From Marinosulfonomonas sp. (GTDB lineage Bacteria > Pseudomonadota > Alphaproteobacteria > Rhodobacterales > Rhodobacteraceae), in NCBI GenBank assembly GCA_015488685.1, contig WFNH01000010.1:1-34131 (forward strand): 34,131 bases of DNA. Reading direction: 5' to 3'. Shown here in pieces: positions 1,545 to 17,962 of this stretch. Position 1 is the stretch's first letter; each line of letters begins with the position of its first letter. The notes below the pieces were generated by a model. That model did no database searches, was not told the origin of the DNA, and saw only the letters and a program-made list of their open reading frames with translations. Position numbers and translations under genes: made by a program.

Positions 1545-3557
1545 TCAATCAAAATGCGCAGCCGGAATCCAGACGGCAAATACAGTCCCGACACCTTCTT
1601 TGCTTTGCGCCCATATATGCCCGCCGCTACGCGACACCAGCTTTTGACTGATCGACAGGCCCAGTCCCGTGCCTTCGGCCTGTTTTGTGGTGAAAAACGG
1701 ATCAAACACACTTTTCAGAATCTCGGATGACATGCCGATTCCGGTATCGGAAACTTCGATTTCCACACCCTGCACCCCGGCTTCATCTTTGTTGGTTGAA
1801 CGCAACGCGAGAGTGCCGCCTTTGGGCATGGCGTGGATTGCGTTGACGATCAGGTTGATCAGTACCTGCTGCAACTCCGTGCGGTTCATCGCAACGTGGC
1901 GGTCGGCGTGCAAGTCCAGCACCAGTTCGATATTCCCCTTGCCCAGCAGGTGCTGCACCAGCGGAATACTATCATTAATCACCTCGCCCGGCAGGTGGTG
2001 CTCGACAAAACCTGCATATTCCTCGGGGCGGGCGAATTGCAGCAGCTTGCTAACCAGAACATTCACGCTGTGGACCTGCTCGTAAATCAGGCCGAATTCG
2101 GTTTCCAACCCTGTGTCATTCCCAACTTCTTGACGGATCACATCCAGATTGCCTTGTATGACTGCAATCGGGTTGTTGATCTCGTGGGCGATACCTGCGG
2201 TAATTTCACCAATGGCCGCCAGTTTCTCTGCCACAACCAGTTGCTTGGTTGTAGCCTCTAGCCGTTGGTTCGCCTCGCTCAGTTCACTGGTGCGTTCGGC
2301 AACGCGCTTGTTTAATTCCTCGGCCCAGTCACGCAGTTTTTGGTCGCGCTCCTGCAACTGTTCCAGCAGGTGGTCCAGATGCCCCGCTACACGCCCCACT
2401 TCATCTTGACCCGCGGGCAGTCCGGTGCGGGCGCCCATATCGCCATCTTCGACTTTGCTGATGGTGGCCACCATGCGTTCCAGCGGTTTGATGATACCGC
2501 CAGCCCAGCGCAAAAAGATCGGCACAGACAGCAAAGCCACCGCCAAAAAACCGCCAAGTATCGTTTTCAAAGTCCGCTGTTTGGCCGCCTGAAACGGGGT
2601 GTCCAGAAAACCCACATACAGCATCCCGACCCGTTTACCAAAGCTGTCTATGATCGGCTCATACGCCGAAATGTACCAGTCATTGACCACGAATGCCCGG
2701 TCCAGCCAGACCTTGCCACCCCCCAGCACGGTTGACCGCACAATGGCCGACACGCGGGTACCCAAGGCGCGGACGTTTTCAAACAGGCGCACGTTGGTGC
2801 TGATACGCACATCGTCCAGAAACAGTGTTGCAGTGCCGCGGCTGCCTTCGGTCAGGCTGGCAGCCGGGTAAACCAGATCATTGATCGTGTCGATAAAAGA
2901 CAGGTTGCGGTTCAGCAGTAACCCGCCAACCAATGCAGCGGGGCTACCAGCATTAACAGCCGTGGCTGTATGAACCACCATTCCACGGGTTTCCGCCTGC
3001 CGGTCGGTAGGAACAGCGGCTTCGGTCGGAACGAGTTTTATCAAGGCCTGTTGTGCCAGATCGGGGGAAATCGCAGCCAGATCAGCCGCCTGGAAAATAT
3101 CAATTTCAGTAACGTCCTGCCCCGCAATTGCCTGCTGTACCACAGGCCATTTCATGACGTCCGATTTTCCGGCAAAGGATGGCGCAGAAATAATCTGTCC
3201 GGTTCCTGTTGTCAGGTACAGAAAATCCAGCCCCAGATTCGCGCGTTCCTTATCAAGATAGGCCGCAATCTCGGTAGGGTTGTTGGCCTGAATCACATGC
3301 GCGAATTCAGCAGATTTTCCCAGTGCTTTTACCCGTTCGCCACTACGTTCCAAAATACCCTTTAAATACTGGTGCGCGATGGTCAGATCACCATTCACCT
3401 TGGCAATCAGTAGATTGTCAAACCGGTTGACCCAGTTCACCCCGACCACCCATAAAAACAGCGGCATCACCACCAGCATAGGCAAAAGTGCAATCGCCAA
3501 CAGGCGGGCGCGGACCGAGTGGAACCATTTTATCCGGCTATGCAGAGACCTAGACAT
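1545..3557 (-). CDS. Cache-domain sensor histidine kinase
   Basis: This is a 670-aa membrane sensor kinase, expected to phosphorylate the response regulator encoded just upstream. In order it has a first membrane helix (about residues 18-38), a large periplasmic sensing region of Cache type (ending near the motif GKRVGMLYVGFLD), a second helix (ILGGFLAVALLSVPIFLRW), a HAMP linker, a coiled coil (ERTSELSEANQRLEA), a dimerisation domain with phospho-acceptor His458 in GIAHEINNPIAVIQ, and a GHKL ATPase with N572, VSDTGIGM and the G2 box EGTGLGLS. I chose the ATG at 3557 because it overlaps the regulator's stop codon (GATGTCTAG), implying translational coupling; an upstream in-frame start at 3635 would run far into the regulator. 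The ligand is unknown. By context it may report formate, a quinone/redox state or a small organic acid. Confidence 0.9.
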   Translation of the reverse strand: MSRSLHSRIKWFHSVRARLLAIALLPMLVVMPLFLWVVGVNWVNRFDNLLIAKVNGDLTIAHQYLKGILERSGERVKALGKSAEFAHVIQANNPTEIAAYLDKERANLGLDFLYLTTGTGQIISAPSFAGKSDVMKWPVVQQAIAGQDVTEIDIFQAADLAAISPDLAQQALIKLVPTEAAVPTDRQAETRGMVVHTATAVNAGSPAALVGGLLLNRNLSFIDTINDLVYPAASLTEGSRGTATLFLDDVRISTNVRLFENVRALGTRVSAIVRSTVLGGGKVWLDRAFVVNDWYISAYEPIIDSFGKRVGMLYVGFLDTPFQAAKQRTLKTILGGFLAVALLSVPIFLRWAGGIIKPLERMVATISKVEDGDMGARTGLPAGQDEVGRVAGHLDHLLEQLQERDQKLRDWAEELNKRVAERTSELSEANQRLEATTKQLVVAEKLAAIGEITAGIAHEINNPIAVIQGNLDVIRQEVGNDTGLETEFGLIYEQVHSVNVLVSKLLQFARPEEYAGFVEHHLPGEVINDSIPLVQHLLGKGNIELVLDLHADRHVAMNRTELQQVLINLIVNAIHAMPKGGTLALRSTNKDEAGVQGVEIEVSDTGIGMSSEILKSVFDPFFTTKQAEGTGLGLSISQKLVSRSGGHIWAQSKEGVGTVFAVWIPAAHFD

Positions 3558-4926
3558 CCCACATCGCGCATTTGCGGTCGATGGTTTTGCGCGACACGCC
3601 CAGTCGGCGCGCGGCCTCGGCGCGGTTACCACCACAGGCGTCCAGAACGGTCAGGATATGGCGACGTTCAACCGCTTGCAGGGAATCCGGTGCGGCAGCG
3701 GTATCATCCTCGTCGCCACAGGAAAATTCCGGCGGGAATTCCCCAAGGATAAGCGAGCGTTCAATCAGGTTGCGCAATTCACGCACATTGCCGGGCCAGT
3801 CATAGCAGGACAGTTTCAACAGCACCTGTTCGGTCAACGGCAGCGGCGGCACACGCAATTCATGCGACAGCTTTTTCATGAACATCGCCGCCAGTTCCGG
3901 CAAATCACTGATACGTTCACGCAAGGTAGGCATCCGCACATTCAGCACGTTGATCCGGTGATAAAGATCCTCGCGGAAATGACCCTGTTCAACCGCCGCC
4001 GGAAGATCGGCATTGGTGGCAAAGATAAACCGCAGATTCAGCGGCACTTCGCGTTGCGAGCCAAAGGGGCGGATGCGCATTTCCTCGATCACCCGCAGCA
4101 GGGTGGCTTGCAACAACAATGGCATTTCCGCGATTTCATCGAAAAACAACGTGCCGCCGCTGGCATAAAGCAACAGCCCATCCTGCCGCCCGTGTGCCTG
4201 TGCCGGATCATTCTGCACATAGCCGAACAGCTCGTTGGCGATTACTTCTGGGGAAAATGACGCGCAATTGACCGGCACAAAGGGCTTGTCGGACCGGTCC
4301 GACATGGCGTGCAATGCGCGGGCGGCGATTTCCTTGCCGGTGCCGGTATCGCCAGTGAATAGCACCGGCGTTGGCAGCGGCGCGACACGTTGCAGGGTTT
4401 CGCGAATATCGGTAATTTCTTTGGAATTCCCCAGCAACCGCCCCCGTCCTGCCGTGGCATCCGCCGACAACTCGTATTTAAGCAAGAAGTTTTCGCGTTG
4501 CAGATGCAGCCGGTCCATACTGCGTGCCACTGCGTTCAATATCTGATTTGACCGAAACGGTTTGAGCACGAAATCCACCGCCCCCGCCCGCAGCGCCTGA
4601 ATGGCGGTTTCCAGATCGGCAAAGGCGGTTATCAGAATGGCATCGGCGAAAAATCCGACCTGTCGCTGTTCGCGCAGCCATTCAAGACCGGTTTTGCCTG
4701 GCAGTATATTATCAAGGATAACAATGTCATAGTGGTTGTTGTCCAGCAGTTTTGAGGCCTCTTCCACATCGGCGGCCTGTTCGACCCGTTTACACCGCGG
4801 TCCCAGAATTTTGGTCAGGAAATTGCGCATCCCCGGCTCGTCATCCACAACAAGGATCGAGCACAGCTCAAGTCCGGCGCCGAATTCGGGCGACGGGTTT
4901 GTCGGGGGGGTGTCGGGTTTGTTCAT
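3550..4926 (-). CDS. NtrC-family response regulator lacking the GAFTGA loop
   Basis: The 458-aa protein has a receiver domain (DD acidic pair in ILVVDDEPGM, phospho-acceptor Asp72 in VILDN, Lys122 in VLKPF), an AAA+ domain with Walker A GDTGTGKE (Lys198) and Walker B GGTLFFDEI (Asp263), the arginine-containing REDLYHRINVL segment, and a Fis-type C-terminal helix-turn-helix (GNRAEAARRLGVSRKTIDRK). In sigma-54 activators ELFGHEKGAFTGA is expected; here, after ELFGY (Tyr236), the sequence is VQNDPAQAHGRQDG, so the sigma-54 contact loop is missing. Related regulators without it (Rhodobacter NtrC, HupR) work with sigma-70 polymerase. ATG 4926 is preferred over GTG 4932 because AGGG lies five bases upstream of it. 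It is partnered with the overlapping kinase gene and is likely the regulator of the formate dehydrogenase operon. Confidence 0.9.
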   Translation of the reverse strand: MNKPDTPPTNPSPEFGAGLELCSILVVDDEPGMRNFLTKILGPRCKRVEQAADVEEASKLLDNNHYDIVILDNILPGKTGLEWLREQRQVGFFADAILITAFADLETAIQALRAGAVDFVLKPFRSNQILNAVARSMDRLHLQRENFLLKYELSADATAGRGRLLGNSKEITDIRETLQRVAPLPTPVLFTGDTGTGKEIAARALHAMSDRSDKPFVPVNCASFSPEVIANELFGYVQNDPAQAHGRQDGLLLYASGGTLFFDEIAEMPLLLQATLLRVIEEMRIRPFGSQREVPLNLRFIFATNADLPAAVEQGHFREDLYHRINVLNVRMPTLRERISDLPELAAMFMKKLSHELRVPPLPLTEQVLLKLSCYDWPGNVRELRNLIERSLILGEFPPEFSCGDEDDTAAAPDSLQAVERRHILTVLDACGGNRAEAARRLGVSRKTIDRKCAMWDV

Positions 4927-4992
4927 CGGCACCCTATGTCTGGAATCCGGTTGATCATGATCCGTCTAGCCTGCGCTATCGCGCATCAATTA

Positions 4993-6282
4993 TCAACCTT
5001 CTGCTTGCTCTATATCCTTCAAGGTTTCGGCAACCAGTTCGCCCAGCCCCAACACCTCGAGGTTATAGATCTCGCGCTCTTCCAGACCTTCTTCGAAAAC
5101 CGTACGGCAGTTGGCGCAGGGCACAACCACGGCTTCCAGCCCGTCAATCGCGTTCAACTGGTCCGCTTTGCAGCCAAAGGCCGCATTCTGCAATTCGGCT
5201 GCACGCGGATTGGCCGAAACACCACCACCACCACCGCAACACAGGTTGCCAAGACCTGCGTTTTCCATTTCGACAAAATCGGCGCAGCTTTCATCCAGCA
5301 ACCTGCGAGGCTCTTTCAGCAGACCGCCACGCCGGATAATCTGGCAAGGATCATGCAACGTCATCTTGCGCCCGTCCTTGGCCCCTGCCGGTATTTTGCC
5401 ATCACGGCGCAACTGATCCAGCAGTTCGATAATATGCACGACTTCGAACTTAAACGGGCGGCCAACCATATTCGGACCCGCCCAGCGGATCGCGCCATAG
5501 GCGTGGCCGCATTCGGGGCTGATCACATATTTCACGCCCAGTTCCTCGGCGGCATCCACCACGCGGGTAACGATTTCTTTGGCCAAGGGGCCAGAACCAA
5601 TCTGAACACCAACATTGGTTGCTTCATATGCCTTGGAGGAAATAGTCCAGCTGACACCGGCCTTTTGGAAAATTTTGGCATAGGCGCCTATGATTTCAGG
5701 ATACCCCATGATTTCCATCGACGACAGGATCGCCATGTAATCGGCCCCCTGCTTGTCGACCTCGATCTTGATGCCGGTTTCCTTTTCCTGATGTTTGACC
5801 TGCGCCAACAGGGCTTTGGAAGTAACCCCCATCGGGCTGCCGGTTTTCTCGACAAAATCAACCGAGCGTTTCAGCCCGTCTGGCACGATATCCGCCGCCG
5901 CGTAACCTTCGCGCATCTTGCGGATGGTGCCGGCAATGTCGATGCCCATCGGGCAAACCATCGTGCAGCGCCCGCACATGGTGCAACTGTCATAAACCAG
6001 CGTTTCCCATTCTCGTAACTCGTCCTCGGTTACGGCGGGGGGCAGCAGGCCGAACATCTTGCGGATGCTGTGCAGCGGGGCCTTTTCCCGCTTGTAGGCC
6101 TTGACCATCGGGAACAGTTTATAGGTAGGCGTATATTTCGGATCCTTGGTTGCCATGTAGAAATGGCACGCCTCGGCGCATTCGCCGCAATGCACGCAGG
6201 CCTCGAAAAACGAGGCGACCTCGCCATCGGTAAATTGCAGGAATTTATCGACGGCAATTTGGGCTTTGTTATCACTGCTCAT
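4993..6282 (-). CDS. DsrK/HdrD-like iron-sulfur protein, copy 1
   Basis: This 429-aa soluble or membrane-associated electron carrier belongs to the GlpC/HdrD/DsrK/TmcB group. Two [4Fe-4S] motifs lie at the front (Cys29-32-35-39 in CVHCGECAEAC; Cys100-103-106-110 in CTMCGRCTMVC). A degenerate first CCG-type region follows (SPECGHAYG, Cys258), then a complete CCG domain (HDPC at 313, CCGGGGG at 349-350, PCANC at 389-392), the type that binds a noncubane 4Fe-4S cluster in heterodisulfide reductases. The start is the ATG at 6282, which overlaps the TGA of the cytochrome b gene upstream (ATGA); longer in-frame starts reach into that gene. Its partner is that NarI-like subunit. The role is electron exchange between the membrane and a cytoplasmic acceptor or donor; substrate unknown. 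Confidence 0.88.
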   Translation of the reverse strand: MSSDNKAQIAVDKFLQFTDGEVASFFEACVHCGECAEACHFYMATKDPKYTPTYKLFPMVKAYKREKAPLHSIRKMFGLLPPAVTEDELREWETLVYDSCTMCGRCTMVCPMGIDIAGTIRKMREGYAAADIVPDGLKRSVDFVEKTGSPMGVTSKALLAQVKHQEKETGIKIEVDKQGADYMAILSSMEIMGYPEIIGAYAKIFQKAGVSWTISSKAYEATNVGVQIGSGPLAKEIVTRVVDAAEELGVKYVISPECGHAYGAIRWAGPNMVGRPFKFEVVHIIELLDQLRRDGKIPAGAKDGRKMTLHDPCQIIRRGGLLKEPRRLLDESCADFVEMENAGLGNLCCGGGGGVSANPRAAELQNAAFGCKADQLNAIDGLEAVVVPCANCRTVFEEGLEEREIYNLEVLGLGELVAETLKDIEQAEG

Positions 6283-6920
6283 GGGTTCATCCCCTTCCGG
6301 CCATAGGTCGCGCCGGTGTGGCCGCGCGACAGAACAAAGGTGAAGGCGTGCATCAATCGACTGAACGGGAAGTAGATCAGCCAGATATCGACGAACAGCA
6401 TATGGATACCACGCAGCACTTCGTGGCTTTGTTGTAGCGCCAGACAGCCAGTCAGCATGACAAGGAACGTCAGCCATGTGCCGATGTGATCATCCCGATC
6501 GGAAATCAGCCGCATTACAGGGTCCGAAAACCGACGCACCCACAGAACAATCAAACCGGCAAAGGCAATTTCCGACGCAAGGATAAAGCCCCAGCGCGGA
6601 AGTGGTGTCCAAGAGATGCCCAGATACTGTTTAATGAAATCAATGTGGAACGCACCGAAAAAGAACAGCACGAACAGACCTAGATGAAAAGCATACCCGC
6701 CGACAATATGGATCCAGGTCCGCCGCGCGAACATCCCGCGCGGTAGGAAATGGCGCAGATTACCTTTGATGAAACCGGCTGTCGCCGACCCCTTTGGCGG
6801 TGAAATATCGGGCTTGCGACCCATGCGGATCAGTCCAAACACGCGCCATGCAGCGGCCAGCGCAAAGATAGCAGCGGCGATATAGAACAACGGGCCTTCT
6901 ACAAAACCAACAAACCCCAT
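6279..6920 (-). CDS. NarI/DsrM-like cytochrome b membrane subunit, copy 1
   Basis: The protein is 213 aa with about five hydrophobic helices. It begins MGFVGFVEGPLFYIAAAIF and ends with a short basic tail. Histidines that could bind two b hemes sit in HIVGGYAFHLGLF on the second helix and in SHEVLRGIHMLFVD and FSRLMHAF near the end, the arrangement expected of NarI-, DsrM- and HdrE-type quinone-reactive subunits. Its stop overlaps the start of the DsrK-like gene by four bases, so the two make a membrane module. A ribosome-binding sequence (AAGGGGTAAAGG) precedes the ATG at 6920. It is a paralogue of the gene at 8229-8873: the FVEGPLFY opening, the YAFHLGLFVL segment and the VDIWLIYFPFSRL segment recur in both. 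Confidence 0.87.
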   Translation of the reverse strand: MGFVGFVEGPLFYIAAAIFALAAAWRVFGLIRMGRKPDISPPKGSATAGFIKGNLRHFLPRGMFARRTWIHIVGGYAFHLGLFVLFFFGAFHIDFIKQYLGISWTPLPRWGFILASEIAFAGLIVLWVRRFSDPVMRLISDRDDHIGTWLTFLVMLTGCLALQQSHEVLRGIHMLFVDIWLIYFPFSRLMHAFTFVLSRGHTGATYGRKGMNP

Positions 6921-6981
6921 GCCTTTACCCCTTGTACATTAAAGAGCCGCGTCCGCCTTTATATTACGTCCAGCCTTCGTA

Positions 6982-8232
6982 TCAGTCTATCATTTGGCGC
7001 TCGACCATCTGCACCATATCTTCGATTTTCTTATCCCATTTGAAATGTTCGGAACTCTTGTCAAAGGTCATGTGGCAAAAGGCACATGACATAACGACAC
7101 CTTCTGCCCCGGTTTTTTCCACCTGATCCATTTTGATCTTGAACGATTCCAGCTGCAACTTGCGGGCGCTTTCAATCACAACCACGCCACCACCGCCGCC
7201 GCAGCACCAGTTGGTTACACCACCCGGCTTCATTTCGCGGTAATCGGTTACAAGGTCTCGCATCATTTCGCGTGGTTCTTCAAACACACCACCGCGTCGG
7301 CCCAATTTACATGGGTCGTGATAGGTAAGTGCCCGACTCTCGGGTTTGAGCTTAAGTCGCCCTTCTTTGTGCATTCGTGCCAGAAATTCGACGATATGCA
7401 GCACTTCAAACGGCAATTCTCGGCCCAATAGGTTGGGCGCCTCCCAGCGGATCGAGCCATAGCCATGGCCGCATTCCGGAGCCAGCACAGTTTTTGCCCC
7501 CATATCTTCTGCCGCTTCGGTAATTCGTTCCACCATTGTCCGGGCTATGCTCTCTTCGCCAGAAAATAGGCCCAGATTGCTCGCCTCGTAGCCTTTCGAC
7601 GAGAAGCTCCAATCTATTCCAAGGCGGTCAAGAATCTTGGCCATCGCCGCCAGAGTTGGTTGATAGGCTTCATAATCTAGTGAAGAGTCGAGCAACAAAA
7701 CTTCAGCATGAGGCTTGTCGAGGTGCATCTTGACATCATATTTTTTCTCAACGTCATCGAGGATTTTCCGCAATTTTTTTGCAGTGACACCAATCGGGCT
7801 GCCGGTATCGCGGGCAGCGTGGGCCATTTTTGTGATCTCTGGTGGCACAAGGCCCACCTCTGACATGCCCTCGCGCATCACCCAAACCAGCGAGGCAATA
7901 TCGATTCCCATCGGACAGGCAAGTGTGCACCGGCCGCACATAGAGCAAGAATCGTAAATCAGATCCTGCCAATCCGATAATTCTTCTTCGGTGACTTTCT
8001 TTGGCGCCCGCCCAATCATACGCCAAAGAGGCGACAATGGATCCTTGCTTGCCTGATAGGCCTGCTGGAGGGGCTGGAATTTCATCACCGGCGCATGTCT
8101 GGGGTCACCCGTCGCCTCGTGGTATTGACAGGCCTGCGCACAAAGCCCGCACCGAACACAAGCATCCAGATAGCTTGCGACCTTGGCACCTGTTTTTTCA
8201 ACAAATTTATCAATGGCTTTTTGAACGGTCAT
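6982..8232 (-). CDS. DsrK/HdrD-like iron-sulfur protein, copy 2
   Basis: This 416-aa paralogue of the protein at 4993-6282 has the same order of motifs: CVRCGLCAQAC (Cys25-28-31-35), CSMCGRCTLACPMG, APECGHGYGSIRW, YHDPCKLGRRGG, CCGGGGGVVV and SCAFCHMTF. The ferredoxin motifs should carry two cubane 4Fe-4S clusters and the CCG domain a noncubane one. Sequence between motifs has drifted, so this is an old duplication rather than a recent copy. Its ATG overlaps the stop of the second cytochrome b gene (ATGA). It is closest to the formate dehydrogenase genes and may be the module that receives formate-derived electrons, but which direction electrons flow is inference. Confidence 0.88.
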   Translation of the reverse strand: MTVQKAIDKFVEKTGAKVASYLDACVRCGLCAQACQYHEATGDPRHAPVMKFQPLQQAYQASKDPLSPLWRMIGRAPKKVTEEELSDWQDLIYDSCSMCGRCTLACPMGIDIASLVWVMREGMSEVGLVPPEITKMAHAARDTGSPIGVTAKKLRKILDDVEKKYDVKMHLDKPHAEVLLLDSSLDYEAYQPTLAAMAKILDRLGIDWSFSSKGYEASNLGLFSGEESIARTMVERITEAAEDMGAKTVLAPECGHGYGSIRWEAPNLLGRELPFEVLHIVEFLARMHKEGRLKLKPESRALTYHDPCKLGRRGGVFEEPREMMRDLVTDYREMKPGGVTNWCCGGGGGVVVIESARKLQLESFKIKMDQVEKTGAEGVVMSCAFCHMTFDKSSEHFKWDKKIEDMVQMVERQMID

Positions 8233-8873
8233 AGCTTAGCCCCCCGCCGGCCATAAGTGGCACCGGTCTGTGCCCGCGAAAAGAAGAAGGTAAAGGTGTG
8301 AATCAGGCGACTAAACGGGAAGTAGATAAGCCAGATATCAACAAAAACCATATGAGTAGCCCGCAATGCAACGTGCGATTCCTGCAGTGCCAAACAGCCA
8401 GTCAGCATAACCAGAAAGGTCAGGATGGTGGCGGCATAGTCTCCGGATGTGGAAATCAGTTTCTGAACCGGATCAACGAACCGGCGGACCCAAAGCATGA
8501 TAAGCCCAGCAAAGGCCACCTCGGCAGTGAGTATAAAAGCCCAATGCGGCAATACCGGCCAGCCGAAACCCAGAACTCGCTCCTGAAGAAACGCGACATG
8601 CGGCGCGGCAAGTAGAAGAAGTACGAATAGCCCAAGGTGAAAGGCATAACCCGCAACAAAATGGAAAGAGCTGCCTCGCCAGAAGGTGCGACGTGGCACG
8701 AAATGGCGCAGGACTGTAAGGATCGCCCCGCCGGTTGCGGAACCATTGGGGCGTGCAAGGTCGCGCTCTCCGCCCAACCTCAAAATACCAATCAGGCGGT
8801 AAACCACCCCCACCACAAAAATAGCAGCGGCAACATAAAACAACGGACCTTCGACGAATTGCAGGAACGTCAT
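8229..8873 (-). CDS. NarI/DsrM-like cytochrome b membrane subunit, copy 2
   Basis: This 214-aa membrane protein begins MTFLQFVEGPLFYVAAAIF. It has about five helices, paired histidines in HFVAGYAFHLGLF, and further histidines in ESHVALRATHMVFVD and FSRLIHTF, consistent with two b-type hemes and quinone contact. The start is the ATG at 8873, which overlaps the stop of the formate dehydrogenase gamma gene (TCATGA); this tight coupling ties the module to the dehydrogenase. An upstream in-frame start at 8924 would overlap that gene by 50 bases and lacks support. It is followed by its DsrK-like partner with a four-base overlap. Confidence 0.87.
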   Translation of the reverse strand: MTFLQFVEGPLFYVAAAIFVVGVVYRLIGILRLGGERDLARPNGSATGGAILTVLRHFVPRRTFWRGSSFHFVAGYAFHLGLFVLLLLAAPHVAFLQERVLGFGWPVLPHWAFILTAEVAFAGLIMLWVRRFVDPVQKLISTSGDYAATILTFLVMLTGCLALQESHVALRATHMVFVDIWLIYFPFSRLIHTFTFFFSRAQTGATYGRRGAKL

Positions 8874-9934
8874 GATGTGCCTTCCTCTTCTGTCGCGGAT
8901 TTTCCTGTTACCTCTTCGTACCATAGATCATGGTGTTCTTTGGCCCAGTTTTCATCCACTTCACCTTTCAGCATGGAATCGATGGACCCTTCCATCCCGG
9001 CAGTGCCGACATAGATGTGGCCGAAAAGAACCGAGATCAGCAGGATTGCCCCGCCTGCGTGCAGGATGGTCGACAGTTGCAGCCAGCGCAGATCATCCAC
9101 CAGCCACGGGAACAGCAGCAAAATACCGGTCCCGCTCATCACGATACCAACAAGGATCACCAGCCAGAACCATGACTTTTCACCAAAATTAAACTGCGAG
9201 GAACTGACGTGGCCGCCAAAAAAACCACCCAGTTTGAAGATCCATTTCAGATCTACCCACTGGAAAAAATTGCCCCGCACGAATTTGATAAACATCCATA
9301 CCAAAGCAACAATAAACAGCGGACCAAACAGGTTGTGCCCCTGCATGGACGCACTGGTCAGAACCGAGTTTACCTCTTTGCCCAGATAGGGCGCAATCAG
9401 CGGTCGGCCTAACAGGATGATCAAACCGGTAACACCCAGTATGGTAAACACGGATGCCATGAACCAATGGGATACCCGTTGGTTGATATTGAAACGTGGC
9501 AGGGTTTTGCCGGAAAATCCGCCTTTGATACGCATTTTGCCTTTGATCAGGTGATATAGCAGCAATAGGGCGATGACGCCCAGCGGGAACCAACCGGCGT
9601 ATTTGCGAATATAGTTTTCACGCAGTTCACGCCAATGTTGGCCTGTCGTGGTTAGCACTGCCCCTTCGGGGCGGGCCTCCAACATCTGCTTTATGTCATT
9701 CGGATCACCGCCGCGAAAATTGCGCCAGAAATCGGATTGGGAATCATCGCCCAATGCGTTTGAGGGGCCGTCTTCTATCCCGTCATCCAGATTTACCGCA
9801 TTCCCGGGCGCACGAACACTTTGTGCGTATGTTTCGGTCGCCCCAAACAGCATCAAGAGCACAAGCAACAAGGCAAGCCCTGTGCCCAGCTTACCAACCG
9901 ATGTGCGGGCGGATGTAAGTAGCGTATTTTGCAA
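8870..9934 (-). CDS. fdhC: Formate dehydrogenase gamma subunit, cytochrome b
   Basis: The membrane anchor of the respiratory formate dehydrogenase transfers electrons from the iron-sulfur subunit through b hemes to quinone. A signal-like helix (LALLLVLLMLFGATETYAQS) is followed by a periplasmic stretch and four further helices of the FdnI/FdoI cytochrome b type. Candidate heme histidines lie in INQRVSHWF, MQGHNLFGP, TILHAGGAIL and LFGHIYVGT. No ATG opens the frame. I favour the TTG at 9934 because AGAAAGG lies nine bases upstream; the TTG at 9955 has no ribosome-binding sequence. It is long for the family (354 aa against about 220 in E. coli) because of the extra N-terminal part, which is common in alphaproteobacterial versions. 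Confidence 0.88.
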   Translation of the reverse strand: MQNTLLTSARTSVGKLGTGLALLLVLLMLFGATETYAQSVRAPGNAVNLDDGIEDGPSNALGDDSQSDFWRNFRGGDPNDIKQMLEARPEGAVLTTTGQHWRELRENYIRKYAGWFPLGVIALLLLYHLIKGKMRIKGGFSGKTLPRFNINQRVSHWFMASVFTILGVTGLIILLGRPLIAPYLGKEVNSVLTSASMQGHNLFGPLFIVALVWMFIKFVRGNFFQWVDLKWIFKLGGFFGGHVSSSQFNFGEKSWFWLVILVGIVMSGTGILLLFPWLVDDLRWLQLSTILHAGGAILLISVLFGHIYVGTAGMEGSIDSMLKGEVDENWAKEHHDLWYEEVTGKSATEEEGTS

Positions 9935-9988
9935 AACTATTGACCTTTCTGACAAGGCGACACACGCGAGACCGTCGCGACGTGGGCT

Positions 9989-10036: not shown

Positions 10037-10630
10037 TCAGCCGCCTTTTTGGCCATAGGCAGTGCCCCAGCCCCAAGCACCAGACCCAAAGCCGCGTGCC
10101 ACGACCCGTTCGCGGTAGATGCCGGAAACGACGTTCCCGTCACCTGCCAGCAGGGCCTTCGTTGCGCACATTTCGGCGCAGATCGGCAGCTTGCCTTCCG
10201 CAATACGGTTGCGACCGTATTTCTGGAACTCGGCCTGGCTGTTGTCCTCTTCCGGGCCACCGGCACAGAAGGTGCATTTGTCCATCTTGCCACGACTGCC
10301 ATAGTTGCCGGCCTGCGGATATTGCGGTGCGCCAAACGGGCAGGCAAAGAAGCAATAACCACACCCGATGCACAGATCTTTGTTGTGCAGCACAATGCCG
10401 TCGGCTGTTTGATAGAAACAGTCGGTCGGGCATACGGCCATACAGGGCGCATCCGAACAATGCATGCACGCCATCGAGATCGAGCGTTCACCCGGTGTGC
10501 CATCATTGATGGTCACAACCCGGCGACGGTTGATGCCCCAAGGCACCTCGTGCTCGTTCTTGCAGGCGGTTACGCAGCCGTTGCATTCAATGCAGCGCTC
10601 CGCATCACAGAGAAATTTAACTCGTGCCAT
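10037..10630 (-). CDS. fdhB: Formate dehydrogenase iron-sulfur (beta) subunit
   Basis: A 197-aa four-cluster ferredoxin carries electrons from the catalytic subunit to the cytochrome b. Cysteine groups, in order: CIECNGCVTAC, CMHCSDAPCMAVC, CIGCGYCFFAC, and CTFC with the later ICAEMC. Together these fit the four [4Fe-4S] clusters of the FdnH/HybA family. It has no signal peptide of its own, as expected for a subunit exported together with the Tat-bearing partner. Unlike E. coli FdnH it lacks a C-terminal membrane helix, so it must be held by fdhC. It follows fdhA by 14 bases, with a good AGGAGA-type site before the ATG. Confidence 0.92.
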   Translation of the reverse strand: MARVKFLCDAERCIECNGCVTACKNEHEVPWGINRRRVVTINDGTPGERSISMACMHCSDAPCMAVCPTDCFYQTADGIVLHNKDLCIGCGYCFFACPFGAPQYPQAGNYGSRGKMDKCTFCAGGPEEDNSQAEFQKYGRNRIAEGKLPICAEMCATKALLAGDGNVVSGIYRERVVARGFGSGAWGWGTAYGQKGG

Positions 10631-10644: not shown

Positions 10645-13539
10645 TTACGCTACAGTGATTTTGCAAAGGGACGCTTTGGTCTCTTGCATTTGGGTTACGG
10701 AATCATAGCCGTAGGTCAGCGCGGTATTGGCGCTTTCGCCCAGCACATAAGGGTCCGCACCTTCGGGATACTTGTCCCGCAGGTCCTTGCCTTCGAACTG
10801 ACCGCCGAAATGGAACGGCATAAAGGCAACGCCTTCACCAACCCGTTCGGTCACCATTGCGGCCACTTTAACCTTGGCACCCTCGGCACCCTCGACCCAG
10901 ACCTGTTGACCATCGCGAATACCCAAATTGTTGGCATCACGAGTGTTCACTTCAACAAACATTTCCTGCTGAAGTTCGGCCAACCATGGGTTGGAGCGGC
11001 TTTCAGCCCCGCCACCCTCGTATTCGACCAAGCGGCCCGAAGTCAGGATCAGCGGATAGTCCTTGCTGAAGTCCTGTTTCTGGATCGATTCATACAGCGT
11101 TGGCAGACGATAGGCCTGTTTATCCGCATAGGTCGGATAATCCGCCACCAGATCACGCCGCGAAGTATAAAGCGGCTCGCGGTGGATCGGCACAGGGTCA
11201 GGGAAGGTCCAGACCACAGCGCGCGCCTTGGCGTTGCCGAACGGCGCACACTCATGCATGATCGCCACCCGCTGGATGCCGCCCGAAAGGTCGGTTTTCC
11301 AGTTGGTTTTCGGTCCGGCCACAGCATCGATTGCTGCGCGTTCCTCGTCCGTCAGGTCTTTGTCCCAACCCAGATCCATCAGCATCTGCATGGTGAATTC
11401 AGGGTAACCGTCCTGAATTTCGGACCCTTGGGAATAGACACCTTCGGCCAACAGGTTCACCCCGTCACGTTCCACGCCGAAACGGGCGCGGAAGGTCAGG
11501 CCACCTTTAGAGACAGGTTTGGACATGTCATAAAGGTTCGGTGTGCCGGGATGGCCCATTTCCGCAGTGCCCCAACATGGCCACGGTAGACCATAGTATT
11601 CACCGTCGTTCGGACCACCAACGGCCTGAAGTGTGGTGCGATCGAACGTGTGTTGGTTCGCCATATGGCTTTTGATCCGCTCAGGCGAACAGCCGGTATA
11701 ACCGATGGTCCATGTGCCGCTGTTGATTTCGCGGGTTACGTCCTCGATATTCGGCTCGTCTTCGGCATCCATCGAAATGTTGCGGAAGAACTTGTCGGCC
11801 CAGCCGAATTTCTTGGCAAACTTTGCCATGATGATGTGATCCGGCAGGGATTCAAACACCGGCTCGATCACCTTGTCACGCCACTGGAATGACCGGTTGG
11901 ATGCTGTAACCGAACCGCGCGTTTCGAACTGGGTCGAAGCAGGCAGCAGATAAACACCATCGGTGCGATCAGAAAGCACAGCGGAAACGGTTGGATAGGG
12001 GTCAACAACGACCAGCATATCCAGTTTTTCCATCGCGGTTTTCATTTCCTTACCACGGGTTTGGCTGTTAGGCGCATGGCCCCACAGGATCATGCCGCGC
12101 ACATTGTTTGGCTGATCGATGTTGTCCTTGTCTTCCAGAACACCGTCAATCCAGCGACTGACCGGAATACCCTTCAGATTCATCAGGGATTTTTCCTTGC
12201 CGTCAGCACCTTTGATGCTGTCGAAACGGGATTTCATCCAGTCCAGATCTTCACCCCAAACACGCGACCAGTGTGCCCATGCGCCTGCGGACAGGCCATA
12301 GTAACCGGGCAGAGTGTGGGACAACACGCACATGTCCGTCGCGCCCTGAACGTTGTCGTGGCCACGGAAAATGTTGGTGCCGCCACCGCTGGTGCCCATG
12401 TTGCCAAGGGCCAGTTGCAGGATGCAATAGGCGCGGGTGTTGTTATTGCCGTTGGTGTGCTGGGTGCCACCCATACACCAGATCAGAGTGCCGGGGCGGT
12501 TGTTGGCCAGCGTGCGGGCAACCCGCTCCAACTGGGATCCGGGAACACCTGTAACCCGCTCGACTTCATCGGGTGTCCAGTTGTTAACCTCTTTCCTGAT
12601 CTCGTCCATACCGTAAACACGGGTGCGGATGAATTCTTTGTCTTCCCAGCCGTTTTCGAAGATATGCCACAGGATACCCCAGACCAGCGCAACGTCCGAA
12701 CCGGGACGGATGCGGACATATTCGTCGGCATGCGCGGCAGTGCGGGTAAAGCGCGGATCGCAAACGATCAGCGGTGCGTTGTTTTGTTCCTTGGCCTTCA
12801 TAAGATGCAACAGGGAAACCGGATGCGCCTCGGCGGGGTTGCCACCGATTACAAGGATCGCCTTGGAGTTATGAATGTCGTTGTAGCTGTTGGTCATGGC
12901 GCCGTAGCCCCATGTGTTGGCTACACCGGCAACCGTGGTCGAGTGACAGATACGTGCCTGATGGTCCACGTTGTTTGTGCCCCAATAGGCGGCAAACTTG
13001 CGGAACATATAGGCTTGTTCGTTGGAATGTTTCGCCGATCCCAGCCAATAGACTGAATCAGGCCCGCTTTCCTCGCGGATTTTCATCAACCCGTCGCCGA
13101 TCTCGTTGATCGCCTGCTCCCAGCTGATGCGTTTCCATTCACCACCCTCTTTTTTCATCGGGTACTTCAGGCGGCGTTCACCATGTGCATGTTCACGCAC
13201 CGAAGCGCCTTTTGCACAGGCCCCGCCCAAGCTGAACGGGCTGTCAAAGCCCGGCTCTTGGCCGACCCAGACGCCATTATCGACTTCGGCAATCACTGTG
13301 CAGCCGACTGAACAGTGGGTGCAAACGGATTTAACTGTTACAATGGCATCATCCATCGCCTCTTGGGCGGATGCCTGTGTGACCGTGCCACCTGTTGCGC
13401 CAATTGCTGCAAGGCCGCCAATGGCAAGCCCCGAGCCGCGCAAGAAGCTGCGTCGGTCTACCGATTTCTCGGCAATGTTGGATAGGAGGCTGGACCCTTG
13501 GGAGCGTCTCGCAATCCCGTTGGTTTTTTTCCTAAGCAT
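10645..13539 (-). CDS. fdhA: Formate dehydrogenase catalytic subunit, Tat-exported, Cys type
   Basis: This 964-aa molybdopterin-guanine-dinucleotide oxidoreductase oxidises formate to CO2 in the periplasm. The N-terminus has a twin-arginine signal (DRRSFLRGS, Arg29-Arg30) followed by a hydrophobic stretch ending near ASAQE. The [4Fe-4S] motif CTHCSVGC plus a distant Cys gives Cys73-76-80-108. The metal ligand lies in ARICHSTTV at Cys198 and is followed by His199; E. coli FdnG has selenocysteine at this site, so this is the cysteine variant and needs no selenium insertion. A C-terminal molydop-binding domain follows (SGRLVEYEGGG, VWVEGAEGAKV). The full length matches the family. GGGAGAAACAC precedes the ATG. 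The nearby tungstate transporter suggests the metal may be W, but sequence alone does not decide between Mo and W. Confidence 0.95.
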   Translation of the reverse strand: MLRKKTNGIARRSQGSSLLSNIAEKSVDRRSFLRGSGLAIGGLAAIGATGGTVTQASAQEAMDDAIVTVKSVCTHCSVGCTVIAEVDNGVWVGQEPGFDSPFSLGGACAKGASVREHAHGERRLKYPMKKEGGEWKRISWEQAINEIGDGLMKIREESGPDSVYWLGSAKHSNEQAYMFRKFAAYWGTNNVDHQARICHSTTVAGVANTWGYGAMTNSYNDIHNSKAILVIGGNPAEAHPVSLLHLMKAKEQNNAPLIVCDPRFTRTAAHADEYVRIRPGSDVALVWGILWHIFENGWEDKEFIRTRVYGMDEIRKEVNNWTPDEVERVTGVPGSQLERVARTLANNRPGTLIWCMGGTQHTNGNNNTRAYCILQLALGNMGTSGGGTNIFRGHDNVQGATDMCVLSHTLPGYYGLSAGAWAHWSRVWGEDLDWMKSRFDSIKGADGKEKSLMNLKGIPVSRWIDGVLEDKDNIDQPNNVRGMILWGHAPNSQTRGKEMKTAMEKLDMLVVVDPYPTVSAVLSDRTDGVYLLPASTQFETRGSVTASNRSFQWRDKVIEPVFESLPDHIIMAKFAKKFGWADKFFRNISMDAEDEPNIEDVTREINSGTWTIGYTGCSPERIKSHMANQHTFDRTTLQAVGGPNDGEYYGLPWPCWGTAEMGHPGTPNLYDMSKPVSKGGLTFRARFGVERDGVNLLAEGVYSQGSEIQDGYPEFTMQMLMDLGWDKDLTDEERAAIDAVAGPKTNWKTDLSGGIQRVAIMHECAPFGNAKARAVVWTFPDPVPIHREPLYTSRRDLVADYPTYADKQAYRLPTLYESIQKQDFSKDYPLILTSGRLVEYEGGGAESRSNPWLAELQQEMFVEVNTRDANNLGIRDGQQVWVEGAEGAKVKVAAMVTERVGEGVAFMPFHFGGQFEGKDLRDKYPEGADPYVLGESANTALTYGYDSVTQMQETKASLCKITVA

Positions 13540-13891: not shown

Positions 13892-14503
13892 CTAACCCGC
13901 GTTCATGCGAAATGCTTCGCGCTCAATCTCCATAAACGCCTTACCGGCCGCGCCAACTGATGCGTAAAAGACCGAATTCTTGGCCCCTTCCAGATCGGTA
14001 AAGAAATGCGTGGCCCAGGGGGCGATATGTTTGTTGAAATATTCGACCTGCCGGTCCAGCGGCACAGGGTCGCCAAAGCGGCCCGTGATCATGCCAGCCA
14101 TCATTTCAAACAGGCTGGCGATGTTGTCTTCAGGCTCGAATACATTTGGGGCGCGCGCGATATGCAGCGCCGCCATGTCCTTGCGCAATGCCGCCAACGG
14201 TTTTTCGTTCAAGAACCCCGTCAGATAAAAACTGGCATAGGGCAACAATTCCCCGCGCCCCATCCCGATGAACAGCGCGGTAAATTCGCTTTCCGCCGCA
14301 CGTTCCTTTGTCACTGCCGCAACCCGCGCCATTGACTGGATTGCCTTGCCCAATTCGCTGTCATCCCCTGACAGGTTTGCCGTTTTCTGCAACAACTCTT
14401 TCGAGGGCGGGCGCGCCAGAAGGGCGGCCAGAAAATCGTAAAAATCCGCGCGCAGTTTGTCTTCGTCTGCAATCACTGGCGTTGTCATGGCGGCTGTCGT
14501 CAT
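13892..14503 (-). CDS. TorD/DmsD-type molybdoenzyme maturation chaperone
   Basis: The 203-aa protein is mostly helical and has no signal peptide. The family signature is visible as EPEDNIASLFEMM in the second half, with RADFYDFLAALLARPPS at the front and ASFYLTGFLNEKPLAALR in the middle. TorD-family chaperones bind the twin-arginine leader of a molybdoenzyme in the cytoplasm and hold it until the cofactor is inserted. The client here is most likely FdhA, encoded two genes downstream, possibly also the small Tat protein. M1 at 14503 or the second Met six codons later could start translation. The flanking DUF3305/DUF3306 genes are typical companions. Confidence 0.9.
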   Translation of the reverse strand: MTTAAMTTPVIADEDKLRADFYDFLAALLARPPSKELLQKTANLSGDDSELGKAIQSMARVAAVTKERAAESEFTALFIGMGRGELLPYASFYLTGFLNEKPLAALRKDMAALHIARAPNVFEPEDNIASLFEMMAGMITGRFGDPVPLDRQVEYFNKHIAPWATHFFTDLEGAKNSVFYASVGAAGKAFMEIEREAFRMNAG

Positions 14504-14518: not shown

Positions 14519-15094
14519 CTAGCTGGCAAACTGAAACCGCATTCTGCGCTTGATGGCAAAATCCGGTTCATCGGGTTGTTCGGTCTGTGTTTCAACGGGG
14601 TCTTCTGCAACCAGAGCCGCTACCGGCTCCTGTTCTTCGATCTTCTCGGTCAGGGCTTTAGGCTCCTCGGTAACCTCTTCGGTCACGTCCTCTGGCACCT
14701 CGATTTCCTCGACTTTATTCAAAATGCCCTTGCCAACCTGATAGGCTGTTTTGACAGCCGCGCCCAAGGCACCTTCCTTGGTGAAGTCCTCGCCGTAGTC
14801 GACCAGATTATCGACATTTGCCAACACCGGATTGCTGCGCCACAATTTACGCAAAGCCAGTTTGCGGATACGTTCCGGCACAGCGGTCTGCATAAAGCCG
14901 GAAAAATCATCACCGGGCTGTAATGTTTCAGGGTCAGGCAGATCCAGTTCCGCCAGAATTTCGGCATCCGTCTTTTCGGCCAGCTCGGCCTGACGTTCGG
15001 CAACAACCGCCTGTTGCTGCGCCAGCACTTCGGCCTCGGCTTCGGCCTGAACCGCCGCGCGACGGCGCGACCATCTGTCCAGCGGCGCGCTCAA
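14519..15094 (-). CDS. DUF3306 protein of formate dehydrogenase cluster
   Basis: The 191-aa protein opens with DRWSRRRAAVQAE and a charged helix, followed by the conserved core LPDPETLQPGDDFSGFM, ERIRKLALRKLWRSNPVLAN and LVDYGEDF. Those features identify the DUF3306 family, which is found beside formate dehydrogenase and DUF3305 genes and whose biochemical role is unknown. The C-terminal third is acidic, low-complexity sequence rich in Glu, Pro and Val, ending in a basic KRRMRFQF. The start appears to be TTG at 15094, overlapping the DUF3305 stop as TTGA. It has no signal peptide, so it is expected in the cytoplasm. Confidence 0.88.
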   Translation of the reverse strand: MSAPLDRWSRRRAAVQAEAEAEVLAQQQAVVAERQAELAEKTDAEILAELDLPDPETLQPGDDFSGFMQTAVPERIRKLALRKLWRSNPVLANVDNLVDYGEDFTKEGALGAAVKTAYQVGKGILNKVEEIEVPEDVTEEVTEEPKALTEKIEEQEPVAALVAEDPVETQTEQPDEPDFAIKRRMRFQFAS

Positions 15095-15663
15095 TGCACC
15101 ACCCTCGCCTTGCGGGACGGCGCACGATAAACATCGGTCGCCTGATGAATACGGGGATCGCCAATGCCGTCTTCCAGCAAATCGATCCGCTTTTTGTCGC
15201 GTTTGCGTTTGACGAAGACTTCTTCTTGGTAATGTTTTTGCACAAAATCATTGACCCAGGCAATCAGCCCGTCAGGCATCGGCACCTGTTCGATGATTTC
15301 TTCGCCGCTATCCGCGTAATCTTGCGCGTCATAGGGCGATGCGGTGGCCAGCAAAATTTCGATATCCTGAGGCGCCTCCGCTGCGTCGGCCTCGCGCATC
15401 ACAACGTAAATGGCGGGTGGGTTGGTGGATAGACCGGCCAAATAAGCCTCGGCATCGGCGCGGAACAATTCCAGTTCAACCGTGGCCGCATGATATTCGA
15501 CAACATCGCCTTCACGGCGCAATTCTTTCCAGCTTTCTTGTGCAGCACCGGGCAGCACTGCCACGGCCTTCCAGACCCATTTTGCCCAGCGCGTCACGCC
15601 CGGAGATTTCCGGAGCACAATCCCAAGCGGTAGGCTGGCTGTAGCGTTCTGCGTCAAAAGCAT
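15091..15663 (-). CDS. DUF3305 protein of formate dehydrogenase cluster
   Basis: First gene of the long minus-strand operon, 190 aa. The DUF3305 core is visible as LPLGIVLRKSPGVTRWAKWVWKA-type sequence near the start, followed by VELELFRADAEAYLAGLSTN, PPAIYVVMR and VNDFVQKHYQEEVFVKRKR, with a basic C-terminal tail. DUF3305 and DUF3306 are regularly paired next to formate dehydrogenases; an accessory role in assembly is inferred from that pairing only. A purine-rich GAGGGAGAA lies directly before the ATG at 15663. The gene diverges from the 652-aa ferredoxin gene across a 340-bp regulatory gap. Confidence 0.87.
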   Translation of the reverse strand: MLLTQNATASLPLGIVLRKSPGVTRWAKWVWKAVAVLPGAAQESWKELRREGDVVEYHAATVELELFRADAEAYLAGLSTNPPAIYVVMREADAAEAPQDIEILLATASPYDAQDYADSGEEIIEQVPMPDGLIAWVNDFVQKHYQEEVFVKRKRDKKRIDLLEDGIGDPRIHQATDVYRAPSRKARVVH

Positions 15664-15843: not shown

Positions 15844-16003
15844 ACCTGTCAAAAACCTTAGTCTTTCGCTTGGAAATCGCTGCGCAATAAAACCGAATCG
15901 CCTATGGTCAGAAATGATTCGAAATTGCTTTACGGCGCGGCGATTTGGTGAATATGTGGACAAGGGAATCGCCCTGAATAATCGGGGAAACCAAGGGGGA
16001 AAC

Positions 16004-17962
16004 ATGGCTAATAGACTGATTTTATGTGATTGTTCCGGCAGCCAGCCGATAGATGACAAGGCATTGGGGGGCACTTGCGGCCTGTCCTGTTCACGCGTCT
16101 ATACGGCCTTATGCACCACACAAATCGGTGAGGCCGCCAAGGAAATAGCCAAGGGCGGCGCGATGATCGCATGCCTTCAGGAACGCGACCTGTTCGAAGA
16201 GCTGGCAGACGAAATTCAGGCGGAAATGCCCGTTTTTATCGACATCCGCGACCGCGCAGGGTGGTCGGACGAGGCCAATAAATCCACCCCGAAAATGGCC
16301 GCATTGATCGCGGATTCCCTGCTGGAAAAACCGGCGGAAAAACTGTTCGATATTACGTCCGAAGGGCGCTGCCTGATCCTTGGATCACCGGAAATAACCC
16401 TACCTGTGGCCGAGCAACTGGCCGACACTCTGGCCGTCACCATACTACTGGAGGAGGTAGAGGATACATCCGTTGACCGGCGGTTCGATCTGGTCATCGG
16501 ACGGCTGAAAACAGCCGCCGGCACGCTGGGGGATTTCCACCTGAAAATCGATGCCTTGCAACAGCTGGACCCGACCGGACGCGGTGCGTTCCAAATGACG
16601 CCCCCGCGTGACGGTGCCGAAACCGAATGCGACATCATCCTTGATCTGCGCGGCGAAACCCCGCTTTTCCCCGCCCCGAACAAACGCGACGGCTATCTGC
16701 GCGCCGACCCGCGCAACCCTGCCGCTGTGGCCAAGGCCGTGTTCGATGCCAGCCAGATGGTCGGCACCTTTGAAAAACCGTTCTACCTGAAAACCGAAAG
16801 CCACCTCTGCGCCCATTCCCGCGCCGAAATCACCGGCTGTTCCAAATGTCTGGATATCTGCCCCACCGGCGCGATTTTTCCCGATGGCGAACATGTCACC
16901 GTTGATCCGGCGATTTGTGGTGGCTGTGGTTCCTGCGTGGCGCTATGCCCCTCGGGCGCTTTGACTTATGACGCGCCGCCCACGGATATTACCTTCAAAC
17001 GCCTACAAACCCTTGCCGATGCCTATCGCAACGCCGGTGGAAAATCCCCCCGCCTGCTGGTGCATGATGGCGAATACGGTGGCGAAATGATCAGCCTTGC
17101 CGCCCGTTTCGGGCGCGGCCTGCCCGCCAATGTGATCCCGATCGAGGTGGCCGCCCTGTCCGGTTTCGGCCATGCGGAAATGCTGGCGGCACTGGCCTGC
17201 GGGTTCAGCGAAATCAGCATTCTGATGACCCCGAAAACCGACCCCGAAACCCTGACCCGCGAACAGGCGATGGCCCTGGCCATTGCAGGCGATCCACGTA
17301 TCACCCTGCTTGATCTGGCCGACCCCGATGCGCTGTCTGATGCACTCTATGGCGCGGCACTCGCCCCGCTGGTTGACGCCCCGATCCTGCCGCTGGGCAG
17401 TCGCCGCCAGATCGCCCGCCTGTCGGCAACGGCCTTGCGCCCCGACACCGACACCCCCATCCCGCTGCCCGAACACGCGCCTTACGGGGCCGTGGTTGTC
17501 GATACCGACGCCTGCACCCTGTGCCTGTCCTGTGCTTCGCAATGTCCAACCGGTGCCTTGGGCGACAACCCCGACAAACCGCAGTTGCGTTTTCAGGAAG
17601 ATGCCTGTCTGCAATGCGGGTTATGCACCCGTGTTTGCCCCGAAAAGGCAATCACCCTGAACCCGCAATTAAACCTGTCGGATCAGGCCTTTACCCAGGT
17701 TGTGGTGCATGAAGAAGACCCGTTCGAATGTATTTCCTGCGGCAAACCCTTTGGTGTGAAATCCACCATTGAAAAGATCATGGAAAAGCTGGCCGGCAAG
17801 CACCCGATGTTCGCCACAACGGACGCCGGAAAACTGATCCAGATGTGTGATACATGCCGGATCGAGGCGCAGTACCATTCCGAAAACAGCCCGTTTCAGG
17901 GCGGCGAGCGCCCCCGTGTGGTCACGACCGAAGATTATCTCAGCAAGCGTCGGGATCACTGA
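16004..17962 (+). CDS. Hdr-like poly-ferredoxin of the formate dehydrogenase cluster
   Basis: This 652-aa cytoplasmic iron-sulfur protein starts MANRLILCDCSGSQ after the site AAGGGGGAAAC; an earlier in-frame ATG at 15914 has no such site. The N-terminal part has clustered cysteines (Cys8, 10, 25, 29, 37, 57) reminiscent of the HdrA N-terminal region. Four classical [4Fe-4S] motifs follow in two pairs: CSKCLDICPTGA (279-285) with CGGCGSCVALCPSGA (305-315), and CTLCLSCASQCPTGA (504-514) with CLQCGLCTRVCPEKA (535-545). Between the pairs is a segment (PRLLVHDGEYGGEMISLAA ... GFSEISIL) resembling the MvhD/FrhD fold but without its cysteines. A CISC/CDTC pair (576-579, 615-618) near the end may bind zinc or a cluster. 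It probably distributes electrons between the dehydrogenase modules and cytoplasmic partners. Confidence 0.85.
   Translation: MANRLILCDCSGSQPIDDKALGGTCGLSCSRVYTALCTTQIGEAAKEIAKGGAMIACLQERDLFEELADEIQAEMPVFIDIRDRAGWSDEANKSTPKMAALIADSLLEKPAEKLFDITSEGRCLILGSPEITLPVAEQLADTLAVTILLEEVEDTSVDRRFDLVIGRLKTAAGTLGDFHLKIDALQQLDPTGRGAFQMTPPRDGAETECDIILDLRGETPLFPAPNKRDGYLRADPRNPAAVAKAVFDASQMVGTFEKPFYLKTESHLCAHSRAEITGCSKCLDICPTGAIFPDGEHVTVDPAICGGCGSCVALCPSGALTYDAPPTDITFKRLQTLADAYRNAGGKSPRLLVHDGEYGGEMISLAARFGRGLPANVIPIEVAALSGFGHAEMLAALACGFSEISILMTPKTDPETLTREQAMALAIAGDPRITLLDLADPDALSDALYGAALAPLVDAPILPLGSRRQIARLSATALRPDTDTPIPLPEHAPYGAVVVDTDACTLCLSCASQCPTGALGDNPDKPQLRFQEDACLQCGLCTRVCPEKAITLNPQLNLSDQAFTQVVVHEEDPFECISCGKPFGVKSTIEKIMEKLAGKHPMFATTDAGKLIQMCDTCRIEAQYHSENSPFQGGERPRVVTTEDYLSKRRDH

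Follow-up and report, generated by a model that had tools for sequence, protein, structure and literature searches.

In group 1e [NiFe] hydrogenases the genes isp1 and isp2 stand between those of the two hydrogenase subunits, and the order hynS-isp1-isp2-hynL has been described in Thiocapsa, Allochromatium, Thiobacillus denitrificans and others (in the accessible passages of PMC2621215 and PMC7735108). Isp1 and Isp2 are said, in an excerpt of PMC3102683, to confer the electron transfer required for in vivo hydrogenase activity. According to the portion available of a 2024 paper, which adds a third hydrogenase clade, the isp genes had been regarded as confined to group 1e hydrogenases of bacteria and group 1g hydrogenases of archaea; for the archaeal Isp-type hydrogenase the same portion proposes that Isp1 passes electrons to quinone and Isp2 to a low-potential acceptor, with bifurcation not excluded (PMC11018855). 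Here we analysed a window of 34,131 nucleotides (the whole stretch of DNA studied; contig WFNH01000010.1, positions 1 to 34,131, assembly GCA_015488685.1) from Marinosulfonomonas sp., in which the genes of an FDH3-type formate dehydrogenase (FDH), fdhABC, are followed by two pairs of genes for an Isp1-like membrane cytochrome b (M) and an Isp2-like iron-sulfur protein (K).

A related single protein, mycobacterial EtfD, which resembles M and K together, is reported in the available part of PMC13083937 to move electrons from a cytoplasmic electron-transfer flavoprotein (ETF) to menaquinone. The present locus combines an electron module of the Isp type with a formate dehydrogenase of the FDH3 type, and does so in a rare tandem. 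We found no paper linking isp genes to formate dehydrogenase, although this is weak evidence since only open-access literature was covered; in the text available from PMC2621215 the FDH and isp passages stand apart from each other. We consider it probable that FdhABC is extended here by modules of the group 1e-hydrogenase Isp1/Isp2 type, two in number and with K subunits of two lineages, which would give formate electrons a path across the membrane.

Two Isp-type pairs in a formate dehydrogenase operon

The operon lies on the minus strand in the order fdhA, fdhB, fdhC, M1, K1, M2, K2, with every frame intact. The first gene, fdhA (10645..13539), encodes the molybdopterin catalytic subunit with an RR (twin-arginine, Tat-like) leader recognised by eye. 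The product of fdhB (10037..10630) is an FDH3-type iron-sulfur subunit, and that of fdhC (8870..9955; its start codon is uncertain and TTG was taken) a cytochrome b561-type gamma subunit; both exceeded the cut-offs of their NCBIfam models (343.6 bits with NF038355, FDH3_beta, cut-off 240; 150.7 bits with TIGR01583, the formate dehydrogenase gamma model, cut-off 115.85). These are followed by M1 (8229..8873), K1 (6982..8232), M2 (6279..6920) and K2 (4993..6282). The first-pass annotation of this DNA, made from its letters, had described fdhC followed by two cytochrome b/iron-sulfur pairs within an FDH operon, which the coordinates, frames and NCBIfam scores confirmed. It had also given 4-nt overlaps; such overlaps (ATGA) were found at fdhC/M1, M1/K1 and M2/K2, but the two pairs are separated by a gap of 61 nt (6921-6981), and hence not all junctions overlap. 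Sequence identity is 42% between K1 and K2 and 61% between M1 and M2. The GC content at third codon positions was 0.56-0.59 in K1, M1 and fdhC, and 0.62-0.76 in the ten other genes measured.

The pairs had been likened to DsrMK and HdrDE. This was borne out at the level of the superfamily, although contexts, trees and family cut-offs place their nearest relatives among Isp1/Isp2. The best NCBIfam scores of M were to TmcC and HmcE and those of K to DsrK, TmcB and HmcF, all of them below cut-off. K was thus rejected as DsrK (231 bits for K2 and 233 for K1, cut-off 400), M as DsrM (at most 21.7 bits, cut-off 300), and the pairs as TmcBC (TmcB 208/206, cut-off 735; TmcC 100/106, cut-off 240) or HmcEF (HmcF 201/204, cut-off 750; HmcE 70/96, cut-off 275). 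HdrD is defined by two complete CCG cluster motifs; in K the C-terminal motif alone is complete, the first being reduced to one invariant cysteine (C258), and the pairs were rejected as HdrDE. Membership of the GlpC or lactate dehydrogenase families, which the first-pass annotation had named as the outcome that would speak against it, was not found: K1 and K2 reached the curated cut-offs of none of GlpC, LutB and LdhH. Neither does K qualify as EtfD, as the cysteines of the linear cluster of that protein (Cys503, 538 and 584, from the ligand list in the available part of PMC13083937) are absent from K in the alignment. In the tree, the rows labelled DsrK, which served as outgroup and among which the own-genome row alone was checked against the DsrK cut-off, formed a separate clade outside the FDH- and hydrogenase-linked K.

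Relatives were collected by genome searches and by a scan of named genome contigs, the latter covering the best 80 of 125 relatives, so that shares among them are not prevalences. Together with 14 loci picked as regions, one of which is the Dsr region of the own genome, the 80 named loci gave 94, and each was labelled automatically by any hydrogenase or FDH match above a score limit within the stretch examined for it. The context was hydrogenase in 61, fdhABC in 29 (two of which, L063 and L142, are the same contig) and other in four. Thus the search for fdhABC followed by such pairs, which the first-pass annotation had proposed, did recover the arrangement, with a single pair in the stretches examined at the loci other than that of the window. 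The recurrence across genomes of fdhC followed by an M-K pair is far beyond chance. The hydrogenase-context pairs include contigs of Thiobacillus, Gallionella, Magnetococcales and Chromatiaceae; read gene by gene, three of these loci (L093, L101, L103) have the order small subunit, M, K, large subunit, and a fourth (L126) the order M, K, large subunit. Because many of the relatives sit in [NiFe] hydrogenase loci with the hynS-isp1-isp2-hynL order, the assignment of the pairs as an Isp1/Isp2-type module, with the modules of group 1e [NiFe] hydrogenases as nearest kin, is well supported. The module is Isp-like in kind, yet it is not part of any group 1e hydrogenase, since fdhABC stands in the hydrogenase's place.

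Among 149 genomes of the family, FDH3 beta was present in 75, and eight of these carried an FDH-linked K; in one family genome (G069) the pair lies at a contig edge and no fdhB was detected. As a separate observation, plasmid pHY1 of Methylovirgula sp. HY1 carries, next to its hydrogenase genes, a gene for a K-like (Fe-S)-binding protein (L194 11926-13305).

Separate histories of M and K, and the tandem

Trees of the two subunits gave different pictures. A quick M tree gave one group, with support 100, made up of 31 FDH-linked rows, the two rows from the window and a further row whose context is unclear. On the careful M tree a single change accounts for the FDH/hydrogenase labels (100/100, and in each of 200 bootstrap trees), while the labels of the careful K tree need five; its starred branches force five, and 200 bootstrap trees gave 5-6. 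In these counts FDH was the label given to the rows of the window and to one row at a contig edge, and three rows whose context is unclear went unlabelled. The careful K tree comprised 65 of the 118 rows of the quick K tree, with 30 hand-chosen non-FDH rows and no DsrK rows. Fragments were left out of both sets (L054 and L165 from M, L138 from K), as were, from K, two DsrK rows in the wrong frame (L017, L021) and, from the trees generally, L142 (contig shared with L063) and L066. A single clade of FDH-linked K was rejected (log-likelihood difference 650; approximately unbiased test, p = 1.4e-6), and so was a single clade of the M proteins paired with K lineage A, which has 20 rows (difference 134, p = 2.8e-5), both constraints having been chosen post hoc, once the first trees were known.

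FDH-linked and hydrogenase-linked K interleave in the trees. K1 falls in lineage A and K2 in lineage B, and each lineage holds members of both kinds; the exact position of K1 is unsure, since its closest relative is 49% identical at best and its branch is long. M1 is homologous to the non-FDH rows (31-41% identical), and M nevertheless forms a separate FDH clade that contains both M1, whose placement there is unsettled by the tree, and M2, which shares its clade with the majority of the sampled FDH operons of Paracoccaceae type. As the M labels need one change and the K labels five, the membrane subunit appears to have stayed with FDH while the cytoplasmic subunit was swapped with hydrogenase operons, in one or both directions, more than once.

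No second FDH-linked locus with two pairs was seen in the stretches examined, some of whose contigs end soon after K, and no other FDH-type tandem among 390 genomes of the order and the 149 of the family. An M match was found in 13 of the order genomes, and two M genes of FDH-like score in the window's genome alone; in one other order genome two M genes also occur, but they lie on separate contigs and their scores differ. Within the genus (eight genomes), three genomes besides the window's have the pair, each in single copy. Two of them (G437 and G441, 81% and 85% complete) carry a single M2-K2 pair. The third, the complete genome of a sister species (G003), has one pair with a K2 97% identical to that of the window, and its M gene (L053 9706-10344) is composite: over the first 60 nt it is M1-like (53/60 against 40/60 for M2), and after about base 60 it is M2-like (64/74 against 41/74 for M1). 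The gene is thus a chimera of M1 and M2. Its simplest reading would be that the common ancestor had the tandem and that recombination collapsed it in G003; alternatively, the window's lineage may have gained the tandem from a tandem donor.

The first-pass annotation had called the module duplicated. For K this is doubtful, and a recent tandem duplication was rejected, because K1 and K2 sit in different clades; as to K, therefore, two sources probably contributed to the tandem, rather than one pair that was copied. For M the description was not rejected, and since M1 and M2 share the FDH clade a recent tandem duplication of that gene may have taken place.

Ligands, the proposed electron path and its rivals

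Four histidines of M (H79, H92, H174 and H192) are invariant in 45/45 rows. By a weak profile match (E 0.04), H79, H174 and H192 align with NarI positions 56, 187 and 205, which we take to be haem ligands. The single-chain model of M1 (mean predicted local distance difference test score, pLDDT, 93.8) matched NarI (Z 13.3) and, less closely, the membrane portion of EtfD (Z 9.2); the tool warns that for helical bundles such as M a Z under about 13 may reflect common arrangement alone. In K, fourteen cysteines (C29, C32, C35, C39, C100, C103, C106, C110, C258, C313, C348, C349, C389 and C392) and H260 are invariant in 42/42 rows of an alignment without L092 (stop codon), L080 and L134, the cysteines making up two motifs of ferredoxin type and one cluster motif that resembles that of HdrB. 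For the single-chain model of K2 (pLDDT 92.2), the best solved match was EtfD (9ojn; Z 26.4 over 397 residues), followed by LutA, HdrB and one further chain at Z 19-20. His260 of K2 aligns with EtfD His583, which, as stated in the part of PMC13083937 available, completes the cluster and makes it non-catalytic, unlike that of Hdr. As K keeps the histidine that caps the cluster in EtfD, the comparison favours a role of K in wiring electrons to a cytoplasmic carrier over disulfide chemistry; the argument is not decisive, because DsrK has the same histidine.

The residues that distinguish M of FDH loci (34 rows) from M of hydrogenase loci (72 rows) were examined along a topology taken from NarI. 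Divergence was high in transmembrane helices 3 and 4, the N-terminus and the 4-5 loop, and low in the 2-3 loop, so that docking of M to FDH on the periplasmic side is only hinted at.

We infer that FdhA is exported, that M docks on FDH and that electrons run from formate to the cytoplasm; K1 and K2, being of two lineages, may serve different partners, as in the two acceptors that the first-pass annotation considered. Formate would then be oxidised in the periplasm at FdhA, and electrons from FdhB would pass either to FdhC and the quinone pool or to M. The M subunit, a NarI-fold cytochrome b with mostly NarI-like haem ligands, would move them over the membrane to K, where two ferredoxin-type clusters would lead to the HdrB-like cluster and on to a soluble cytoplasmic carrier; quinone might be served at M too. 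The evidence fits the formate-linked transmembrane conduit with two diverged modules of the first-pass annotation, the route and its acceptors being proposed; the bifurcation that it also envisaged was not shown. A more general idea, which we hold tentatively and think rather unlikely as a whole, is that Isp2-type subunits are interchangeable adaptors, M being matched to the dehydrogenase and K to a set of acceptors common to H2 and formate enzymes, so that the single FDH here would feed two cytoplasmic acceptors besides quinone, possibly splitting electrons between high- and low-potential carriers.

Several points weigh against this path. FdhC should be able to pass electrons to quinone by itself, and an FDH-linked K is missing from 67 of the 75 FDH3-bearing family genomes; the module is therefore dispensable for formate oxidation as such. 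The haem ligands of M fit NarI at three of four positions only and in a weak alignment, and the Z of 9.2 between M1 and EtfD says little, being hardly above that of unrelated rhodopsins (about 8). In a Mantel comparison over 21 loci, the correlation of FdhA distances with M distances (rho 0.74) was only a little higher than that with K distances (0.61); with FdhC distances it was 0.64. No widely shared acceptor gene was seen 3' of K in 14 FDH loci inspected by eye. Finally, flow could be opposite to that proposed, because EtfD runs from the cytoplasm to quinone.

As to the acceptor, in the family sample DsrK was present in 6/8 genomes with an FDH-linked Isp module and in 4/67 FDH3 genomes without it (Fisher p = 2.6e-5, or 1.5e-4 after removal of G003, which is of the same genus), DsrK status being taken from profile scores rather than from the DsrK cut-off and the relatedness of the genomes inflating the significance. 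Among 27 FDH-Isp genomes tested, two of which (G019, G103) also belong to the family sample, DsrK was above cut-off in 19 and absent at cut-off in eight; the latter include G744, G774 and G103, each 99-100% complete, as well as G069, which has a DsrK-like fragment. The tie of the FDH-linked module to Dsr sulfur oxidisers is thus clear in these samples but not strict. Since the own genome (C49, C77, C89) has DsrK above cut-off and three DsrC-family genes, a sulfur carrier is a serious candidate for the acceptor of K. In two FDH-Isp loci, L134 and L135, a gene that by eye is rhodanese-like lies directly 3' of K.

These data bear on a different reading of K, as a DsrK-like disulfide/trisulfide or persulfide reductase that would carry formate electrons to a sulfur carrier of the DsrC family, or the reverse. 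All 14 cluster cysteines and the ECGH motif of K are common to 8/8 correctly framed DsrK rows (L021 ignored), and the enrichment of DsrK, the DsrC-family genes of the own genome and the rhodanese-like neighbours point the same way. However, the capping position of His260 speaks for a wire, if not decisively, three nearly or fully complete FDH-Isp genomes are among the eight without DsrK over cut-off, and Fisher's test overstates the independence of related genomes, so that we regard this reading as unlikely. Somewhat unlikely, too, is that the second pair is redundant, a recombination-prone tandem in the course of being lost with a single acceptor for both K. The chimeric M of the sister species, the lone M2-K2 pairs of G437 and G441 and the lack of a further FDH-type tandem in the order and family samples would suit such a loss, while the intact frames and ligands of both pairs, and K subunits as different as K1 and K2 and of separate clades, would not.

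That the modules run towards the membrane, from a cytoplasmic donor such as ETF or ferredoxin through K either to quinone or into the FDH for the reduction of CO2, seems to us quite improbable. EtfD, the closest solved structure to K, does run in this direction, and the FDH is encoded near a tungstate-type transporter, tungsten FDHs often being reversible. Nonetheless an FdhABC of this type is normally understood as a formate oxidiser, and no donor gene was recognised near the operon.

Neighbouring genes and comparison with described systems

Next to K2 lie genes for a sigma54-dependent response regulator (3550..4932, minus strand), also found 3' of K2 in several relatives, and for a histidine kinase with sCache_3_3 sensor and HAMP domains (1545..3635, minus). 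On the other side of the operon, the FDH accessory set on the minus strand contains genes for a DUF3306 protein (14519..15094) and a DUF3305 protein (15091..15663), next to that of a TorD/NarJ-like chaperone (13892..14503, minus). A divergent gene for a multi-[4Fe-4S] protein (15914..17962, plus strand) recurs in many FDH-Isp loci. Further on there is an ABC transporter of tungstate type (21152..23527, minus; Pfam PBP_like_2, ABC_tran and BPD_transp_1), with genes resembling tupA, tupC and tupB. Between these, at 17956-18708, is a gene for a small cytochrome c whose N-terminal part resembles, by eye, a shortened periplasmic binding protein; it adjoins FDH accessory genes in several relatives. 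Genes for an Mrp/ApbC-like ATPase (by eye), a BPL_LplA_LipB_2/DUF4444 protein and a DUF6505 protein (18770-21056) accompany the FDH locus in some relatives. An open frame of a transposase integrase core (rve) was seen at 435-947, at the left end of the window.

Of the systems to which the locus can be compared, DsrMKJOP shares with K all the DsrK cluster cysteines; the score of K is nevertheless far below the DsrK cut-off, DsrK has a clade of its own, and no dsrJOP-like genes were recognised beside the operon. TmcBC and HmcEF of sulfate reducers provide the best NCBIfam scores of M (TmcC, HmcE), again far below cut-off, and among the genes of the operon we recognised no multihaem cytochrome c as a partner. 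With the FDH3 of Alphaproteobacteria the locus shares fdhA, fdhB, fdhC and accessory genes, although most such genomes (67/75) are without an FDH-linked K. EtfD (9ojn) has in common with the pairs a NarI-like membrane part, two cubane-cluster motifs, a CCG domain and a histidine at the capping position. It differs in being a single polypeptide that holds one haem and, in addition, a linear cluster, as given in the available part of PMC13083937, whereas here M and K are split, M has four invariant histidines and K is without the cysteines of the linear cluster.

The closest likeness is to the group 1e hydrogenase. It has the same two-gene module with the same ligands, K1 and K2 fall among hydrogenase-linked Isp2, and both modules accompany a periplasmic oxidoreductase whose leader is Tat-like, export being presumed in the present case. 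The differences are that the locus has no hydrogenase, that M and K come after fdhABC and are not flanked by hynS and hynL, that M falls in a clade made up of FDH-linked members alone, that the operon has two modules, and that FdhC is present as well. Isp modules on FDHs, mostly in Dsr-bearing bacteria and with the inner subunit swapped, amount to a natural experiment on the partner of Isp2, and the K1/K2 tandem operon beside a single-module sister species opens the question of the acceptor to comparison. The path proposed here for the FDH is very similar to that put forward for the archaeal Isp-type hydrogenase in the part of PMC11018855 available.

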